Part shown: positions 1,775 to 60,474 of the stretch, one piece after another
How positions within the stretch are numbered: the first letter of the stretch is position 1
Layout: each line of letters begins with the position of its first letter
Origin: Diacronema lutheri
Taxonomy: Eukaryota; Haptophyta; Pavlovophyceae; Pavlovales; Pavlovaceae
DNA length: 64,000 nucleotides
Direction: 5' to 3'
Assembly (NCBI GenBank): GCA_019448385.1
Contig: JAGTXO010000019.1
Location: 186,001 to 250,000, forward strand
Translations under genes and position numbers: made by a program
Notes under the pieces: generated by a model
Told to the model about the DNA's origin: nothing
Seen by the model: only the letters and a program-made list of their open reading frames with translations
The model's database searches: none

Positions 1775-3827
1775 TCACGCCCGGGCCCCGGCCCCGCTCT
1801 CGCCCGCAGCCGCCGCGCTCTCGCCCGCAGCCGGCCGTAGCCGCAGCTGCGCGCAGAGGCTCGTCCGGTTCATCCCGTCCTGGAACTGGAAGGGTCGTAA
1901 CGTCTCGGCCCACATGCCGCGCGAGTCGTAACCCGCGATCGCCTCCGCCGCGCGCAGCTCCGTGCGCGACGCGCGCGCGAGCAGCCGCGCGCGCGCGTCG
2001 GCGGAACACTCGGCCGTCTCGCGCGAGCGGGCGGCGCACGCGAGCGCGACGCGGCGCTCCGCATCGGCGCCGTGCGCTTCAGCCCTGCCGCGCGCGTCCG
2101 CTGCGTCTTGAGCGACGTGGTCGGCGCGCGGGAAGGACGCGCGCACCGCGCGCTCGGCCTCGCGCCAGTACCGCACGCGGCGCGAGAGCTCGACGTGCGA
2201 ATTGTCGCGCAGTGAGTAGGGCCACGCCGGGTCGCACTTTCTCTGAAAGATCTTTTCAAAGTCGTGGTAATACCGGAATTCCGGACGCGCCGCCGAGTCC
2301 GGCTCGGCTTCTGCGCCGGGCGTGAGGAGGCAGGCGAGGTCGCCGCCAACCTGCGCTCGTCGCGGTGTGCGGGAATGCGCCGCGCGCCGCGCGCCGCGCC
2401 GCGGGTGGGCGCGCCGTGCGTGACAGCGGGCAAGCGGGGAGGGCGGGGTGGGGGGGGGGGGGGGGAGGGGGGAGGGAAGGGGGGCTGGGGGGGCATGGGC
2501 GCACGCACGCGGCGCGTCGGCGCGCCGCTGTCGCCCGTCCATGCCACGCACATGAATGGCACACGAACAGAGTGGGGGTTTGGGGGAAGGAGTGGGGGTT
2601 TGGGGGAAGGGGGGAAGGAGCACAGAGTGGGGGGTTGGGGCAAAAGGGCAGGGGGGGGGAGGGGGGGGGGAGGGGGGGGGGGCTTGAGGTGTGGCGGCGC
2701 GCTTGGGAGCTAGCATGTCTACGGGCAAGGCGCTGCCCACTGGCTGGCGCGCAACGCGGCGTGGACGGGCCAGCGACGGCTAGCGAGCGAGGGCCCCGGC
2801 GGTCGAGCGGGGCTCACCTGGTGCTTCGCGTGCGTGAGGTGAAACCACATCCCCTGGTCCATCATCGCGCCGTGGTACCGCCACGAGCCGCCTCGAATCG
2901 CCGCCGAGCCACGCGGGTGCACCCACACTGGATCGTTTGCCGGCACTGTGTCGCGCGGCGGCCCGCGCAGCTCCCAACCTAGCGCGCCGTCGAACACGCG
3001 CCCGGGCCGCGGATCGCGCGTCAGGATGGCGAGCGCGTCCGGGTAAAGCCGCGTAGACGGTCTGATGAGGACCATGCCGCCGTTGATCGGGCTCGCAACA
3101 TCCGGACGTCCGGCGAGGCGCCAGTTGGACTCGCGCATCGCGCGCAGCGCGCCGAGCCACGCGCCGATCGAGCGGTCCGGCCGCGCCTGCAGCAGCGGCG
3201 GGAAGAAGTCGACGTCAAGGTCCCTGCGCGCGCGCGCGACAACGCGCGCGAAGGCCGCGCGGCGTGCGCGCGCCGAGCGTCGCCGGCCGCGCGGTGTGCG
3301 CACGCCGCGCGGCCGCGTCCTGCGCACCCGCGCGACGGAGCGCGCGCATGTCCATCGGAGCGCGCGAATTCCTCCCGCGCGCTCGCGTCCCGCCACGCTC
3401 CCCACTCGCGCGAGCGCGTCGCGCGCCGCGCGCCCTCGCGCGCCGCGCGCCCGCGCGCGCCGCGCGCCCCTCACCAGAAGAGCGTGAAGTCGACGTCGGT
3501 GCGCGCGAGCGCGAGCAGCTTGTAGAGCGAGCGCACCATCGGTCGGTACTTGCCGAGCGTGCCGTGATAGGCGCGCACGGCGGCGGCGAGCTCGTGCGGC
3601 ACAACGGCGTGCGTGCGCACGCGCGTGCCACGCGGCGTCACGCGCTCGCCGGGTATGCTGCAGTTGCCGTAGATGTCAACGACGACGTCGCGGCCGGACG
3701 CGGCGCGGAGCGCCGCGGCGAACGCGTCGGCGCGCGCACGCCAGAGGAAGGCGGGGCACATATACTTGACGCAGTGGTCGTAGTAGAGGATGAGCGCCAC
3801 GCTGAGCAGCGCTCGGCCCACCGCCAT
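1775..3827 (-). CDS. Type II membrane glycosyltransferase with DxD motif
   Basis: Three exons in transcript order, 3827-3475, 3223-2818 and 2350-1775, encode 444 residues; phases agree and introns are GTGAG..CAG. The N-terminus (MAVGRALLSVALILYYDH) is a signal-anchor, as in Golgi transferases. Splicing across 3475/3223 restores DVDFTLFWDLDVDFFP, whose DLDVD is the metal and nucleotide-sugar binding DxD motif. NGGMVLIRPSTRLYPDAL matches the NxGxMxxxPS segment of GT8/glycogenin-like enzymes, and a later HGAMMDQGMWFHL segment resembles their acceptor region. The C-terminus is Arg/Ala-rich. The start was chosen because the anchor begins there; an in-frame ATG 44 codons upstream would add a basic tail. 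Exact sugar and acceptor are unknown. Confidence 0.75.
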
Positions 3828-14270: not shown

Positions 14271-15306
14271 ATGGCTCTCGACGTGGACGCGCTGCTCGCG
14301 GCCTTCGGGCGCGACGGGTACGCGTACGTGCGCGCGGCCGTGGCCGAGCGTGTGGTGGACGCGCTCAACACCGAGCTTGCCGCAGAGCTCGCGAGCCCGT
14401 CCGTCGCGACGGAGAGCGGCGGCACGCGCGCGCCGGGCGGCGAGCGGCTTTCACTCGCGGCGAGGGAGACGTGGCCGACGGCGGGCGCGCGGCGCGTGGT
14501 GGAGGTGACGCCACCGGGCGGCAGCGCGGCGTGGGAGTCGATCGAGCGCTCGCCGCCGCTTGCGCGCGCGCTCGATGCGCTGCTCGGCGCCGGCTGCTGG
14601 GAGCTGCCAGCCAACGACCGCGCGCCGCCGGGCGGCGGCCAGCTCGCGGTGCGGCACTGGTACGCGCCCATCGCGTTCCCGCAGCCGCCGTCGGAGGGCG
14701 GCGCGGAGAGCTGGACGCCGGTCAACCGCCGCGGCAAGCGCTGGCGCGGCTGGCACGTCGACATCGGCCCCGGCTTCTCGACGGACGAAACGCGAGCGCT
14801 CGGCGGCCATCGTGCGCAGGGCGCGGTCGTCCTCTTGCTCGGCTCGGATGCCACGCCGGGCGGCGGCGGCACGGCGCTCATCCGCGGCAGCCACAGGTGG
14901 GTGCACGCCGCCCTCGCGCGCGCGGGCGAGCGTGGCCTCACGCACCAGCAGCTCAACCGTTGGGCGGCGGCGGAGGCGGATGCTCGTCGGCGGTCCGGGC
15001 GGCTGCGTCTCGAGGTGCCCGGACAGCCGACGCGCGCGCGCGCGGCGCAGGCGATGGCGGCGGCGGCGGCGGCGGAGCTCGATGAGGACGGCGGCGACGG
15101 CACGCCGCGCGGGCAGCGCGCGCGCGCCGACCAGCGCGCACGTGCGGGTAGGCGACGCGCGGACGCGGACGCGCGGGCGAACGCCGACGCCGACGTACAG
15201 GGCGCCGACGACGTGCAGGGCGCCGACGACGTGCAGGGCGCCGACGACGTGCAGGGCGCCGACGACGTGCAGGGCGCCGACGCGGGCGTGGGCGCCGACG
15301 CGGGCA

Positions 15307-15351
<45 letters not shown>

Positions 15352-18210
15352 ATGCCGACGCGGATGCCGACGCGGAGGTCCACCAGGTGTGCGGCAGGCC
15401 GGGCGACGTCGTCTTGCTGCACCCTTGGCTCGTCCACTGCGGTACGACCAACTGCAGCGAGCGCCCGCGCGTGCTCTACAATGGGATGGCGCGCGTCCGC
15501 GCCGCCGCATTTGAAAAGGGCGGGTGCGCCACGCTCGCGCTGCTCACCGAGCACGCGGCCGCGTGGCGCGCGGCGCGGCGGTCGCGCGCCGCGCGCACCG
15601 CCGCGCGCGGCGTCGGCGGCGTCGGCGACGGCGTCGGCGACGGCGACGACGACGGCGACGACGGCGGCGACGACGGCGACGGCAGCGGCGGCGCGTGGCC
15701 GCCGGTCCCGCCGCTGCGCTTGTTCGAGCGCCTGCCAACGCCGCCGCCGCTGCGCGGCGCGCGCGCCGCGGCCGGCACGCCGCGCGCCGAGGAGCTGGCG
15801 GCGGTCGTTGCGGCTCTCGGCGCGGCGGCTGAGGCGAACGGCGGGCCGCGCGCGCCCGCCGACGCGGCGCTGCCGTCCGTGAGCGTCGTGCTGGCGCTCG
15901 AGCGCGTGCTGGCCGCCGGTCGCGAGCTCGGACAGCCCGCGCAGCTCGGGCAGCCCGCGCCGCCATCGCCGCCATCGCCGCCATCGCCGCCATCGCCGCC
16001 ATCGCCGCCATCGCCGCCCGCGCCGCCCGCGCCGCCTGCGGCACCGGTGCGGGCAGCGATGGCGGCGATGGCAGCGATGGCGGCTGCCGAAGCCGCGCCG
16101 GCCGAGCCGAGCGGCGCCGCGACGGCAGCCATCGCTGCCAATAATGGCGAGCGCGCAAGGGACTTGGCGACGGCAGCCATCGCTGCCAATGATGGCGAGC
16201 GCGCAAGGGACTTGGCGACGGCAGCCATCGCTGCCAACAATGGCGAGCGCGCGATTTTGGCGCCATTGCCTCCGGCACGCGCGCCGCCGTCCGCGGGCGC
16301 AGCTGGCGCGCTCGCGGCGGACGGCTCACCGCCGCCGCCCGCGCGGCGCGCGTCCGAGCCCAAGCCCGCACAGCAGCATTTGTCGGGCGCGCGCGCGCCG
16401 GGGCCAGCGCCGCGCAGCGCGCGCACCGCGGACGCGCGCGTCGGCTTGGACGCGCGCGCGCGCACGCCGCCGGCCGCTTCGCGCTGGGCGTGCGAGATGC
16501 TTGACACGAGTCTTGGCTCAGTGCTTGCGCAGACGTACAGGGGGCAGATTGAGGTGCGCCCGTCCAGCCGCGCGCGCGTGCGCGCGTGCGCCCGAGCACC
16601 CACCTGTGCGCGCGTGTATGCGCCGCGCTTGGCTTTTAAAATCGCCCGCACGGCGCGCGGCGCGCGGCGCGCGGCGGCAGGTGTCCGTCTTCGACGCGAG
16701 CGCCGACAAATGGGTGTCGTGCGCCGTGCTGGGCTGGGCGGCTCGCCTGCGGCGTGCGGGCATGCACGTCGTCACGGCGCGCGGCGGCGGCGGCGGCGCG
16801 CCGATGGGCGGCGGCGGCGCGCTCCGCGCGGCGGTCGAGCAGTCGAGCGGCAGCGTCATCGTGATGCTCGGGCTGGGCGACGTGATGATGCCCGAGCGCA
16901 TCGCCGCGCAGGTGCACGCGCTCGAGCGCGCGCCGCGCGCGCTCGTCGGCGCGGCCTGGCGGCGGCTGCCTGACGGCGCGACCGCCCATTTTGAAACTTG
17001 GGCGAACGGACTCGCGTCTCACGAGTTGTGGCTGCAGCAATTCCGCGAGGCGCCGCTGCAGCTTGGCGGCTGGTGCCTGACGCGCGCCGCGTATGACGCC
17101 GCCGGCGGCTTCGCCGCCGCACCGCGGGGCGACGTCGCCGCGCGGTGCGACCCGCAGGTCGCTGCCTGTAAAAGTCCGGGCAGCGAGGAGGGCGCCATCG
17201 TGTCTGCGACAGCCTGCGCAGCCACCGCCTACGGCGGCAGGCGTGCGCGGCGCGCCGCCACCGCCGTCGCGCACGCCGACGCCAACGCGGACGCCTCGGC
17301 CGCGGCGGCCGCCGCCGACGGCGCGACGGCGTGCGCCGAGGACGTGCACTTCTTGCACGCGCACTTGGACGCCTTCGCGCGCTATTACGGCGGTGACGGC
17401 TGTAACGTCGGTGACGCCTGTGACGGCGGTGACGGCGGTGACGGCGGTGAAGGCGGTACAGAGCGGCGCGCGCGCGGCGAGCACAGCCCTGCGCCGCGTT
17501 CGCCGCGCGCGCCGGCTGGGCGCGCGCCGGGCGCGCGTAGCCCCGCGCGCAGCGCCGTCGACGACGAAACCCGCCATGCCCCGCCCTGCCCGTGCGCGCC
17601 GGCGGACGCGGGCGCGGCGTGGCTGCGCGCGCAGCTCGCCGCATCGCCGCCCCTCGTGCGCGTCGGCGACAGGCATGCGCCCCTCCTCCTCCTCCGCTGC
17701 GCACTCGGCGAGGCCGCGCCGCGCGAGGGCAGCGTCGAGTCGGAGTGCGTGCGCGCGGCCGGCGCGGGCGGCGCGGCACGCGCGCTCGCGCAGCGCGCGG
17801 CGCGGCGGCGGTGCGCGCTCGCGGCGCGCGTCGCCGCCTTCGAGCGGCGCGTGCTCACCCTGCCCGCGTGGGCGCACTTTGCCGTGTGGGGCGCCGGGCG
17901 AGAGGGCCGGCGCTTTGCCTCGGCGCTGTCCTCGTGCGCGCGCGCGCGCGTCGTCGCGCTCGTCGACGACGACGCGGCGAAGGCGGGCGGTCGGTACGTG
18001 AACAGGCGGCTCGTGCCCGCGCTCACGCTGCCGATCGTGCACACCGCCGAGCTGCGCGCCGGCACGCCAACGGTCGTGTGCGTCGCGCGCCGACGTGCTG
18101 ACGAGCCGGGCGCGCTCTCGTCCGATTCGGCGGGCGCGCCCGAGGCGGTGCAGCGCGCGGCGGCGGTGCTCGGCCTCGTCGAGGGGCTCACGCTGTGGCA
18201 CTTTTGCTAG
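14271..18210 (+). CDS. Fusion: PhyH-type 2OG-Fe(II) dioxygenase + B3GNTL1/QTGAL-type glycosyltransferase
   Basis: Exons 14271-16553 and 16681-18210 (intron GTGCGC..CAG, 127 nt) encode 1270 residues. Residues 1 to about 430 are a phytanoyl-CoA dioxygenase-like jelly-roll with WHVDIG (H162, D164), distal H389 in WLVHCG and the 2-oxoglutarate arginine in ERPRVLYNG; an acidic repeat insert (about 300-370) splits the fold. From V537 (VSVVLAL) a GT2-like domain begins. Its first strand and helix are separated by about 200 low-complexity residues, then SLGSVLAQTYRGQIE joins across the intron to VSVFDAS. The C-terminal 90 residues (AHFAVWGAGREGRR, VVALVDDD, LPIVHTAE) match the end of B3GNTL1, the queuosine-tRNA galactosyltransferase. 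The acidic motif LDSDDVMMP of that family is here LGLGDVMMP, so activity is doubtful. The gene starts 81 bases from the divergent PTOX start. Confidence 0.82.
15196..15375 (+). repeat. In-frame 18-bp and 6-bp minisatellites in the dioxygenase insert
   Basis: Five copies of an 18-bp unit (GTGCAGGGCGCCGACGAC, protein VQGADD) are followed by about ten GACGCC-type units (poly-DA). They sit between the two halves of the dioxygenase iron site and preserve frame, so length can change without breaking the protein. Confidence 0.85.
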
Positions 18211-35849: not shown

Positions 35850-46851
<11,002 letters not shown>

Positions 46852-47150: not shown

Positions 47151-50100
47151 ATGTTCACCAAGCATGCGGCCCACGTCTTGCTCTGCACGCGCGTCACGCG
47201 CGCACTCGCGCTCGGCACGGCGCTTGTGTACCCGGCGCTCCTCGCGCTGCTCTACTACGTCCACCGCGACTCGCTCCTCGAGCTATCGGTGGAGGAGCGG
47301 CGCTGCGCGGGCGTCGTCGCGTCGGTGATGCTCGGCGCGTGCGCCGTGTCCGCCGCCAACATAGGCATTGCCGACGAGTTTTCGGGTGCGCGCGAGGTGA
47401 TGCTCGCCGTGCACCTCGTCACCGCGCTCGCGAACGCGCTCGCAGCGCTCTACCCGATGCCCGTGCTCGTCGACCCGTTCACGGGCGTGCGCGCGCACCA
47501 GTCGCGCTACGCCGAATGGGCGGTGCTCGCCTTCACGATGACGTACCTCATCGAATCGTGCGACGCCAGGTCGGCGACCGCGCCGCTCGCGATCGCGCTC
47601 CGCTCGGCCGGCGGCGTCGTGATCGCCGGCCTCATCATCCCAAACCTCGGCGGCTACCCGGTGCTGTGGGCGCTCGGGCTCGCGGCGGGGTACGCCAACT
47701 TTCTGACCATCTTCCCGCGCGTGTGGGCGCGGATGGACGACGTGCGCGCCGACCAGCGCGAGCTGCGCGCGAGCGACCTCACCGCGAGCGTCGAGCGCAG
47801 CCTCGCCAAGGACCTGCTCATCACGTGCTCGTGCATGTGGTCGCTCTTCGCCTCGTCGTACCTGCTCACGTGGCTATGCGCTTGGCGCGCGGGCGACAGC
47901 TGGGCGCACCCCGCGTGGCCATACATTGTCGACTCGTCGCTCGACGTGATCGTCAAGCTGCTGTACGGCCTCACGATCGAGTCGGCGCATCGGTCGATCC
48001 CCGCGCGCCGCGCGCACATCCAGAGCCAGCTCATCCAATCAGCGCTCGACGTAATCTGGTCGCTGAGCAGCGACGTGATGATCATCTCGCGCTTCTCGCC
48101 CGCGCACCCCGAGCGCCTCACCACCATCGCCTCCGAGTCGATCACGCGGATGCTCGGCGCCGACGCGGCGCGCTGGCGCGACTGGACGCACCACAAGATC
48201 CTGGACGATCGCGCGTGCGCGGCGCTCGACGGCGGCGCGCTCGACGACGAGGACGACATGCCCGTCACGGCGGTGCCGGCGCTGCCGCTCGGCATCGAGG
48301 CGGACGCGGCGCGTGCGCTGCTTGACGCGCGCGACGCGCTCGCCGGCGGCGGTGGCGCGGGTGGGCCGCAACCGACGCTCGTCGTGCGCGCCGCCGACGT
48401 GCAGTCGCTCGTCTCGCAGGTCTGGCGGCGCATCACAGCGGGCGACGGCGAGAGTGGCGAAGGCAGTGCGCCGGGCGCGACGCCCAAGCTCGACGCCGAT
48501 GGCATGCCGCTCACGCACGTCGCGTTCTCGTGGTCGCAGGGGCGTGGGCGCTGGTCGGACGTGAGCGCGACCGTATGCAACGACCGCGGCTGCCTCATCA
48601 TGGTCGCGCGCGACGCGACGGACCGGCTGCAGCTGCAGCGCTCGGAGAAGGAGCTGCTCGCACAGCGGCTCTGCCGGCAGAAGGACGCCGAAGCGAACGC
48701 GTTCACGCGGCACGAGGTGAAGAACTGCGTCCTCGAGGCGCTCACGCAGTGCGAGTCGCTGCGCGAGCTCCTCGGCGGCGCGCTCGGCGCGCACGCGGCC
48801 GGTGGCGGTGGCGGAGGTGGCGGCGGTGGCGTTGGTTGCGGCGAGCCGCGCGAGAGCGCGTCGCTCGTGCGCGTCGTGACCGAGATGGAGGAGAAGCTCA
48901 AGCGCACGCTCAACACGGTGCTCGCGCAGGCGATGGCGCGCGAGCTCGTGCACGGCGAGTATTCGGCGCAGCCCGAGCCCGTCGACGTCGAGGCGCTGCT
49001 CCGCTCGTCCATCTCGTCATCGGACGACGACGCGCGCTTCCAGTTTGCCTTCCGCCCTGACCCGTTCCCGATGGTCCTCGTCGACCCGCGGCTCGTCTAC
49101 CACGTCTTCCACAACGCCGTCTCGAACGCGTGCAAGTACGGGCGTGCTCGCGGCGTGATCACGACGGACGTGTCGATCGCGCACGGCGTCGTGACGATGC
49201 GCGTGGTCAATCTGCCCGGGCCAAGCCACGAGCGGCTGTGCGCGGCGCCCGACTCGGCCGCCGCCGTCTTCGAGAAGGGCCGCCGGCTGCATGAGGACGA
49301 TGCGGACGACTTGCGCACCGCCAAGGTGAGCGCGGGCGACGGCGCGTGGATCATGCGCAAGTGCTCGGCGGCGTTGAGCGGGTGGTGCTCGATCTCGTTT
49401 GGCGAAACGCGGACCGTCTTCGAGCTCCACTTCCCGGCCAAGCTGCACGTCTCGCGCGCGCAGGTCCTCGCATACGCGCTGCCGGCCGGCACGCTCGGCA
49501 TCGGCATCGACGACTCGAAGGTGCAGCGCTCGATGCTGCGCAAGATCTTCGAGGTGGTGGGGATCGCGCCCGAGCTGATGACGATCGTTGGGCACGACTC
49601 CGAGTCTATCCTCGCCTTCGCCGACACCGTCGAGCGCATCGTGCGCGACAACCCGACCGCACGCGTCTTTGTCGTCGCGGACGAGAACCTCGAGCTCGAG
49701 GGCGGCGCGACGCGCGAGGCGGCCTCGGGCTCGCGCGCGCTCGAGACCGTGAAAGCGCGACTACCGGTCGAGCTCCTCGCCAACACGCTTCTCGTCGTGC
49801 GCTCCGCCAACGACTCGAAGGAGGAGTGCGCGGCGTTCTGCGCGCGTTCGCACGGCGTGCTGCCAAAGTGCGCGTTTTCGAAGGAGGGCGTGCTGCAGGC
49901 GGTGGCCGCGCTGTGGTTTGAGCGGTTTGGCGATGCGGGCGGCGCCGAGGGCATCACAGAGCATGGCTCCGAGTCGCGCATGCTCACGTCGATCGAGGGC
50001 GAGCTCTTCGAGTCGATCGAGAAGCTCGCCGCGGTGGTCGATCCGACGGCGCCGTGGGACGTCGTACGCCGGCAGCTGCACCAGATCAAGGGCGAGCTGC

Positions 50101-50393
50101 GCTCGTTGCCCGCCAGCGAGGCGCTTAGCGCGCATATTGAGGCGATCGTCGGCACGATCGACCGCGTGCGCAAGGGCTCCGAGCCGTCGCCGTCGTTCGC
50201 GACCACATGGGGCGCGCTGCGCGCCCACATCGCGAGCCTCGTGCAGGCGGCGAGCGCCGCGGCGCAGATGGGCGCGGACGGGCAGCTGCGCGCGCGCTCA
50301 TCGTCGAGCAGCGAAACGCGACGGCGGCAGAGCGCCTACCGCATGCGCCTCGTGCTGGAACCCACTCGTTCTGAACAAATCCAATTGCCTTGA
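47151..50393 (+). CDS. Rhodopsin-coupled hybrid histidine kinase (8 TM rhodopsin + HisKA/HATPase + receiver + HPt)
   Basis: Single 1080-residue exon starting at MFTKHAAH. Eight hydrophobic helices fill residues 1-285. The fourth carries RYAEW (R119, E122, W123), equal to R82, D85 and W86 of bacteriorhodopsin; the seventh has CMWSLFASSYLLTWL like helix F; the eighth has DVIVKLLYG with D265 and K269 at the spacing of D212 and the retinal Schiff-base lysine K216. The D96 proton donor position is leucine, as in sensory types. An extra N-terminal helix is typical of enzyme-rhodopsins. Then come a HisKA H-box (H521, TRHEVKN), a HATPase N-box (HNAVSNACKYG, N655) with a weak G-box, a receiver (D787, D788; acceptor D844 in VVADEN) and an HPt (H977, LHQIKGELRSL). 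Light could drive a His-Asp-His relay. Codon use is even and less repetitive than neighbours. Confidence 0.85.
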   Translation: MFTKHAAHVLLCTRVTRALALGTALVYPALLALLYYVHRDSLLELSVEERRCAGVVASVMLGACAVSAANIGIADEFSGAREVMLAVHLVTALANALAALYPMPVLVDPFTGVRAHQSRYAEWAVLAFTMTYLIESCDARSATAPLAIALRSAGGVVIAGLIIPNLGGYPVLWALGLAAGYANFLTIFPRVWARMDDVRADQRELRASDLTASVERSLAKDLLITCSCMWSLFASSYLLTWLCAWRAGDSWAHPAWPYIVDSSLDVIVKLLYGLTIESAHRSIPARRAHIQSQLIQSALDVIWSLSSDVMIISRFSPAHPERLTTIASESITRMLGADAARWRDWTHHKILDDRACAALDGGALDDEDDMPVTAVPALPLGIEADAARALLDARDALAGGGGAGGPQPTLVVRAADVQSLVSQVWRRITAGDGESGEGSAPGATPKLDADGMPLTHVAFSWSQGRGRWSDVSATVCNDRGCLIMVARDATDRLQLQRSEKELLAQRLCRQKDAEANAFTRHEVKNCVLEALTQCESLRELLGGALGAHAAGGGGGGGGGGVGCGEPRESASLVRVVTEMEEKLKRTLNTVLAQAMARELVHGEYSAQPEPVDVEALLRSSISSSDDDARFQFAFRPDPFPMVLVDPRLVYHVFHNAVSNACKYGRARGVITTDVSIAHGVVTMRVVNLPGPSHERLCAAPDSAAAVFEKGRRLHEDDADDLRTAKVSAGDGAWIMRKCSAALSGWCSISFGETRTVFELHFPAKLHVSRAQVLAYALPAGTLGIGIDDSKVQRSMLRKIFEVVGIAPELMTIVGHDSESILAFADTVERIVRDNPTARVFVVADENLELEGGATREAASGSRALETVKARLPVELLANTLLVVRSANDSKEECAAFCARSHGVLPKCAFSKEGVLQAVAALWFERFGDAGGAEGITEHGSESRMLTSIEGELFESIEKLAAVVDPTAPWDVVRRQLHQIKGELRSLPASEALSAHIEAIVGTIDRVRKGSEPSPSFATTWGALRAHIASLVQAASAAAQMGADGQLRARSSSSSETRRRQSAYRMRLVLEPTRSEQIQLP

Positions 50394-57186: not shown

Positions 57187-60474
<3,288 letters not shown>

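Follow-up and report, generated by a model that had tools for sequence, protein, structure and literature searches.

A candidate histidine-kinase rhodopsin with an HPt-like end in the haptophyte Diacronema lutheri

Named histidine-kinase rhodopsins (HKRs), as described in the literature, carry an eight-helix rhodopsin, a histidine kinase and a response regulator in one chain, and run on into a cyclase. Mutants of one of them, Cr2c-Cyclop1, indicate that it works via His-to-Asp transfer, and the enzyme output measured for Cr2c-Cyclop1 and Vc2c-Cyclop1 is that of a guanylyl cyclase. The HKRs of Ostreococcus (OtRh1/Ot-HKR, OtRh2 and OlRh1-4), compared here by their rows in the table of PMC7693036, are HisK-RR proteins without a cyclase, and no HPt is entered for them. 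Here we describe a gene of the haptophyte Diacronema lutheri that lies in a stretch of 64,000 nucleotides (positions 186,001 to 250,000 of contig JAGTXO010000019.1, assembly GCA_019448385.1; hereafter the window). From its sequence and the models built on it, we consider that the gene probably encodes a histidine-kinase rhodopsin that signals through a phosphorelay and not a cyclase. The window protein has the rhodopsin and kinase of the named HKRs, followed by a putative regulator; instead of the cyclase, however, it has an HPt-like end, and a PAS-like linker stands before its kinase.

The gene occupies 47151..50393 on the + strand, as do all of its features given below, and forms one uninterrupted frame of 1,080 amino acids from ATG to TGA. 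The predicted order of domains in the product is rhodopsin, PAS-like linker, DHp, ATPase, receiver and HPt-like end. The base composition would predict about 17 stops per 1,080 codons and there was none; the GC content at codon positions 1, 2 and 3 is 0.69, 0.50 and 0.92, and third-position GC (GC3) was high in all five stretches tested. The GC content of the window is 63-84% per 2 kb. Ten residues were checked (R119, E122, D265, K269, H521, N655, D787, D788, D844 and H977), among them all those named in an earlier, sequence-only reading of this DNA, and every one was in place. The proposed HisKA-HATPase-receiver-HPt order is also that of the bacterial tripartite hybrid kinases of the ArcB, BarA and EvgS type, which, unlike the window protein, have a non-rhodopsin sensor and canonical H, N and G boxes. 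We searched the genome (43,492,796 bases in 103 contigs) for copies of the family and found three more, L009 (contig C9), L010 (contig C5) and L011 (contig C32). The window gene is the only intact full-length copy seen in the genome.

The rhodopsin domain was assigned to residues 13-300 (47187..48050) by AlphaFold, Foldseek and a profile match to RhoPDE. The model of the first 300 residues, made from a six-row alignment (mean pLDDT 81, pTM 0.77), has eight helices, TM0 (13-37), A (47-71), B (78-100), C (117-136), D (143-166), E (170-203), F (207-250) and G (256-300), as well as strands in the BC loop (residues 103-116). Seven of them form the bundle of the microbial (type 1) rhodopsin fold; the extra helix TM0 ahead of these seven, together with the enzyme part behind, makes the protein an enzyme rhodopsin in its architecture. 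Searching the PDB with this model by Foldseek gave 490 matches at E<=10, of which four reached E<=0.001 (best E 4.5e-5). All four are RhoPDE, with TM-scores of 0.68-0.71 by query length over 270-295 aligned columns, TM0 included. The best 50 of the 490 matches were all microbial rhodopsins, one being named only psXR.

The profile search led to the same protein. The rhodopsin profile consisted of six rows from the four family copies (window, L009, L010 and L011), and among 177,635 distinct PDB sequences it found two at E<=1, both from the rhodopsin domain of Salpingoeca rosetta RhoPDE (7cj3, E 1.1e-3; 7d7q, E 1.2e-3), with RYAEW aligned on RYAEW. RhoPDE is the closest solved fold and shares with the window protein TM0, RYAEW and the Asp and Lys in TM7, but its output is a phosphodiesterase, and the identity in the fold alignment is 15-16%. 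The PDB profile match, the AlphaFold helices and the Foldseek result uphold the earlier proposal of an eight-helix enzyme-rhodopsin with an extra N-terminal helix, and the top PDB matches were RhoPDE and microbial rhodopsins rather than non-rhodopsin membrane sensors. A kinship with bestrhodopsins, which are fused to bestrophin channels, was considered from a PDB match of the TM2-TM3 region to 7pl9 (RYMEW; E 0.15, not significant) and dropped, as both the profile and the fold searches favour RhoPDE. Elsewhere in the genome, PF01036 (Bac_rhodopsin) had two matches, both at C19:273369-274125, presumably exons, two or more, of one conventional rhodopsin gene. A Pavlova (Diacronema) lutheri rhodopsin was non-electrogenic on expression by Klapoetke et al. 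2014, according to PMC8818676; this protein may be one of the four copies or the product of the C19 gene.

We then compared the residues of the putative retinal pocket, numbering the reference positions as in bacteriorhodopsin. Helix G carries D265 and K269 (47943..47957), the proposed counter-ion and Schiff-base lysine; a Lys in this helix with an acid four residues earlier is thus present, and it is so in all four copies. R119, W123 and W230, the last of which we take to be at the Trp182 position, are also kept in four of the four. In helix G (15 columns) the conservation moment gives a conserved face at 112 degrees; K269 lies at 120 degrees and D265 at 80, only 0.56% of 5,000 shuffles were equally strong, and the direction was 119 degrees when K269 and D265 were left out. 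This conserved face is indirect evidence that K269 faces the core of the helix bundle. In helix C, the RYAEW motif (residues 119-123, 47505..47519) aligned with RYAEW of RhoPDE places E122 at the Asp85 position, which is Glu in the window copy, an in-frame TAG in L009 and Gln (CAG) in both L010 and L011. The Thr89 position is Leu in all four copies (L126), and the Thr90 position is Ala or Ser, Ala in the window.

Both the Glu at the counter-ion position and the Leu at the donor position pointed out from the sequence are present. Their combination is not new, since the Glu/Leu/Asp/Lys pocket already occurs in Ostreococcus HKRs: in the PMC7693036 table, OtRh1-2 and OlRh1-4 have Glu 85, Leu 96, Asp 212 and Lys 216, and Glu at 85 is listed also for RhoPDE and RhoGC. 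The Ostreococcus rows differ from the window in having Thr at both 89 and 90 (Leu and Ala in the window). The HKR rows of this table have Thr, Ser, Ala or Gly at the Thr89 position, and Leu there is absent from every row of the residue table. The counter-ion of RhoPDE is Asp292, to which the protonated Glu164 is bonded (PMC7644710). Because of this arrangement, and because L010 and L011 have Gln at this position, Glu122 is possibly not the counter-ion. The simplest reading, by analogy with RhoPDE, is that E122 may have a protonated-type role with D265 as the counter-ion. Judged from sequence and model together, light sensing by the rhodopsin part is likely.

Behind the rhodopsin follows a linker of about 190 residues, which was absent from the earlier description. 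Its sequence pattern, judged by eye, makes it a putative PAS-like linker (residues 301-489, 48051..48617), and it ends in a D-A/V/C-T-D/E-R motif common to L009 and L010. Pfam gave no match of any kind in the linker of the four copies at E<=10, so that a PAS domain was confirmed neither by Pfam nor by the model, and the model confidence in this region is <50. The next element is the DHp helical hairpin (residues 490-600, 48618..48950; model helices 490-549 and 567-600), in which H521 stands in HEVKN, a motif present in all three kinase copies. The HATPase domain (residues 609-765, 48975..49445) was assigned from Pfam HATPase_c, the model and its motifs; E-values were 3.1e-4 for the whole protein and 8.3e-5 for the piece, both below the curated cut-off, and L009 exceeds this cut-off (26.9 vs 26.4 bits). 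NCBIfam gave for the whole window protein kinase matches only, far under their cut-offs. In the C-terminal AlphaFold model, which covers residues 285-1080, the confidence by tens of residues is <50 up to residue 499, 43-75 in the hairpin and 39-90 in the ATPase. At E<=0.001 Foldseek matched this model 248 times, with the histidine kinase ShkA in first place; the best 50 of the 248 were histidine kinases, phytochromes and related proteins, a result uninformative on the receiver or the HPt separately. A DHp with a predicted phospho-His and an HATPase are thus found in the rhodopsin's own chain, as expected of a histidine-kinase rhodopsin, and sequence and model make the kinase assignment a fair call.

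The N-box of this ATPase reads NAVSNACKYG (residues 655-664). The sequence-only reading had singled out N655 as the HATPase Asn; it is in place as the first Asn of the N-box, but the Mg-ligand Asn of known kinases we take, by comparison with PhoQ and EnvZ, to correspond to N659 and not to N655. N659 lies in the N-box helix of the model and is kept in three of the three kinase copies, and the N655 position is Ala in L010.

In the receiver domain (residues 782-926, 49494..49928), the model (confidence 67-93) puts D787/D788, S885 and K906 just past strands 1, 4 and 5, respectively, and D844 where strand 3 ends; VRSANDS and HxVxPK are invariant in all three copies. From the model and this conserved residue pattern, the receiver call is plausible. 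The HPt-like helices (residues 940-1063, 49968..50339) were assigned from the model (core 61-86, both ends <50), Pfam Hpt and a profile, and an HxxKG phospho-His motif stands on the second helix, behind the receiver, as LHQIKGEL with H977. A three-row HPt profile, compared with four other HPts of the genome, gave E 3.2e-4 and a probability of 39% with H977 on their His, and the mismatched domain-pair controls gave E 0.56 and 0.25. The HPt assignment is likely on the evidence of sequence and model. The genome-wide matches were 4 other HPt, 20 receiver and 32 HATPase, the window being counted among the last; at one further locus, L029 (C39:243907-244957), a receiver match is followed by an HPt match on the same strand, possibly a receiver-HPt protein or neighbouring genes.

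Pfam detected no guanylyl cyclase in the open frame of the gene, which therefore does not qualify as a two-component cyclase opsin. The earlier reading named green algae as the home of HKRs, often with a cyclase; PMC7693036 lists them for the cryptophyte Guillardia too. In the partner-domain table of that paper, kinases, regulators, cyclases and others are given for green-algal and Guillardia rhodopsins and HPt is not. The terms HPt and phosphotransfer have zero occurrences in the main text of that paper, and HPt has none in the main text of a 2025 review (PMC12558739). No HKR with an HPt end, and no haptophyte HKR, was found in the literature searched at title and abstract level, with subscription papers mostly outside this search. 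The view of the HPt end as a different output design therefore agrees with the partner table and with the literature searched.

Next, we compared the window gene with its paralogs. L009 has four exons by GT-AG boundaries, the same domain order and 1,081 codons; its identity with the window protein is 49% over kinase, receiver and HPt, and H521, N659, D787, D788, D844, S885, K906 and H977 are invariant between them. In L011 there is the rhodopsin together with a stretch resembling the linker by eye, and no kinase match. L009 and L010 each carry a lesion, described below, which may be real or may come from assembly. Two near-identical histidine kinases, L022 and L023, lie about 5.6 kb apart on contig C43 with 4 differences in 351 bases, and L023 has TAG where L022 has CAG. 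As both in-frame TAGs (L009 and L023) face CAG in a sister copy, TAG was considered as a sense codon; this was rejected, as 148 protein-kinase matches contained no TAG and 2 TGA. A viral source was also unsupported: three scans of viral contigs gave 8, 5 and 35 pattern matches, none of them confirmed, tblastn on phages gave nothing, and Foldseek on BFVD gave 0 matches at E<=0.001. A scan of prokaryotic genome contigs for a relative gave 42 pattern matches with 0 confirmed; like the viral scans, it says nothing on eukaryotes.

Several observations weigh against a light-driven histidine-kinase rhodopsin with a phosphorelay output. PF01036 had no match in any of the six rows of the rhodopsin alignment at E<=1, and the window protein as a single sequence had no rhodopsin match in Pfam or NCBIfam; the PF01036 miss reflects a detection threshold rather than a feature of the molecule. 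The C-terminal model has a mean pLDDT of 63 and a pTM of 0.40. The L010 piece had no Pfam HATPase match. The receiver had no significant match by Pfam or PDB profile search, and its profile, compared with four receivers of the genome, gave E 0.14 and a probability of 0.4% in the right register, with the mismatched control at E 0.25. Pfam Hpt gave E 0.061 for the whole protein and 0.025 and 0.0043 for two pieces, all below cut-off, and neither the L009 nor the L010 piece matched it; the HPt profile found no HPt in the PDB. Among the paralogs, L009 contains a single in-frame TAG, which falls precisely on the codon of the Asp85 position (reverse-complement position 3232), and L010, of the same domain order, has a one-base frameshift in the receiver at ~5640, just after DDSKVQR, and Gly at the position of the HPt His.

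The remaining adverse point lies in the ATP site, where the G1 Asp is replaced by Asn in all three rhodopsin-kinase copies. With the register set by eye, their G1 boxes read VVNLPGPSH (window), VVNEAGIDH and VSNKPGDGH, and their G2 boxes GDGAWIM (GDGAWIMRKC in the window), GDGAWVM and GEGAWLM. The ordinary kinases of the genome (L022, its near-copy L023, L024 and L025) have VTDTGIG, VRDEGVG and VSDSGEG at G1, and GTGLGL at G2. By this comparison, made by eye, the window protein lacks the canonical motifs of an active histidine kinase apart from N659. In ATPases of the HATPase fold the G1 Asp contacts adenine, and Asn in its place disables several known members. Mainly because of this Asn, we do not call the relay complete. 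The claim of a complete His-Asp-His relay is weakened further by the receiver, whose sequence matches are not significant, and by the HPt, which stays below the Pfam cut-off; a complete phosphorelay is plausible from sequence and model.

The same G1 Asn, set against the Asp of L022-L025, together with GDGAWIMRKC in place of GTGLGL and the missing HPt His of L010, could also mean that the rhodopsin is a sensor joined to a kinase part which is non-catalytic or acts chiefly as a phosphatase. H521 would then no longer be phosphorylated, and light would govern the removal of phosphate from, or the docking of, the receiver/HPt carrier. We consider this rather unlikely, as the window protein and L009 share H521, N659 and much of the ATPase at ~50% identity, the ATPase of L009 is above the Pfam cut-off, and Asn may still hold nucleotide. 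It is still less likely, indeed improbable, that the membrane part has lost retinal and senses something else, with the lysine as a relic. Its sequence is distant from rhodopsin profiles, the four copies carry Glu, Gln, Gln and a stop codon at the Asp85 position, and Leu at the Thr89 position is in no row of the PMC7693036 table. K269, D265, R119, W123 and W230 are nevertheless in four of the four copies, with the conserved face at K269. HKR1, with Met at 85 (PMC7693036), binds retinal (PMC8818676), and Cop6, with Gln at 85, is listed as a rhodopsin (PMC7693036).

That the family is decaying and the window copy intact by chance and unused is very improbable in our view. The in-frame TAG of L009, the one-base frameshift of L010 and the lone rhodopsin match of L011 point in that direction; however, the window gene is open over 1,080 codons, its GC3 is high in each of the five stretches, the phospho-sites are conserved at 49% identity, and some of the lesions are possibly assembly errors.

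We therefore return to the histidine-kinase rhodopsin with a phosphorelay output as the favoured reading. In the mechanism that we propose, retinal on K269 would absorb light; D265 would be the main counter-ion, and E122 would probably form a hydrogen bond with D265. The helix movement would pass through the bundle and the PAS-like linker, and autophosphorylation of H521 would be raised or lowered. From H521 phosphate could then pass to D844 and on to H977 of that chain, or of its dimer partner, before leaving H977 for other response regulators of the cell. The open frame, the modelled eight-helix fold, the similarity to kinases and the phospho-sites kept in full-length L009 are what the analysis shows; retinal binding and kinase activity, the way in which light acts on the latter, the roles of receiver and HPt, the phosphotransfer and the partners are all predicted from sequence and models. 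An HPt-ended histidine-kinase rhodopsin could connect to any response regulator. If the reading is true, histidine-kinase rhodopsins extend to haptophytes, light becomes testable as a direct phosphorelay input in a haptophyte, and the protein may offer a compact light-to-phosphorelay tool. A bolder proposal, which we regard as doubtful, is that these photoreceptor kinases form a class specific to haptophytes: a single chain would pass light through a multi-step His-Asp-His relay to diffusible regulators and would be driven by a remodelled nucleotide site (G1 Asn), using another nucleotide or acting mainly as a light-gated phosphatase.

Upstream of the gene, at ~43600-45500 of the window, translations and base skew indicate apparent purine-rich repeats, which give rise to large overlapping open frames. 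Ten open frames of the window were scanned. Among them, 14271-16973 matched phytanoyl-CoA dioxygenase (E 2.5e-10), and 58974-60098 matched a ZIP transporter at E 5.5e-4, which is under the cut-off.

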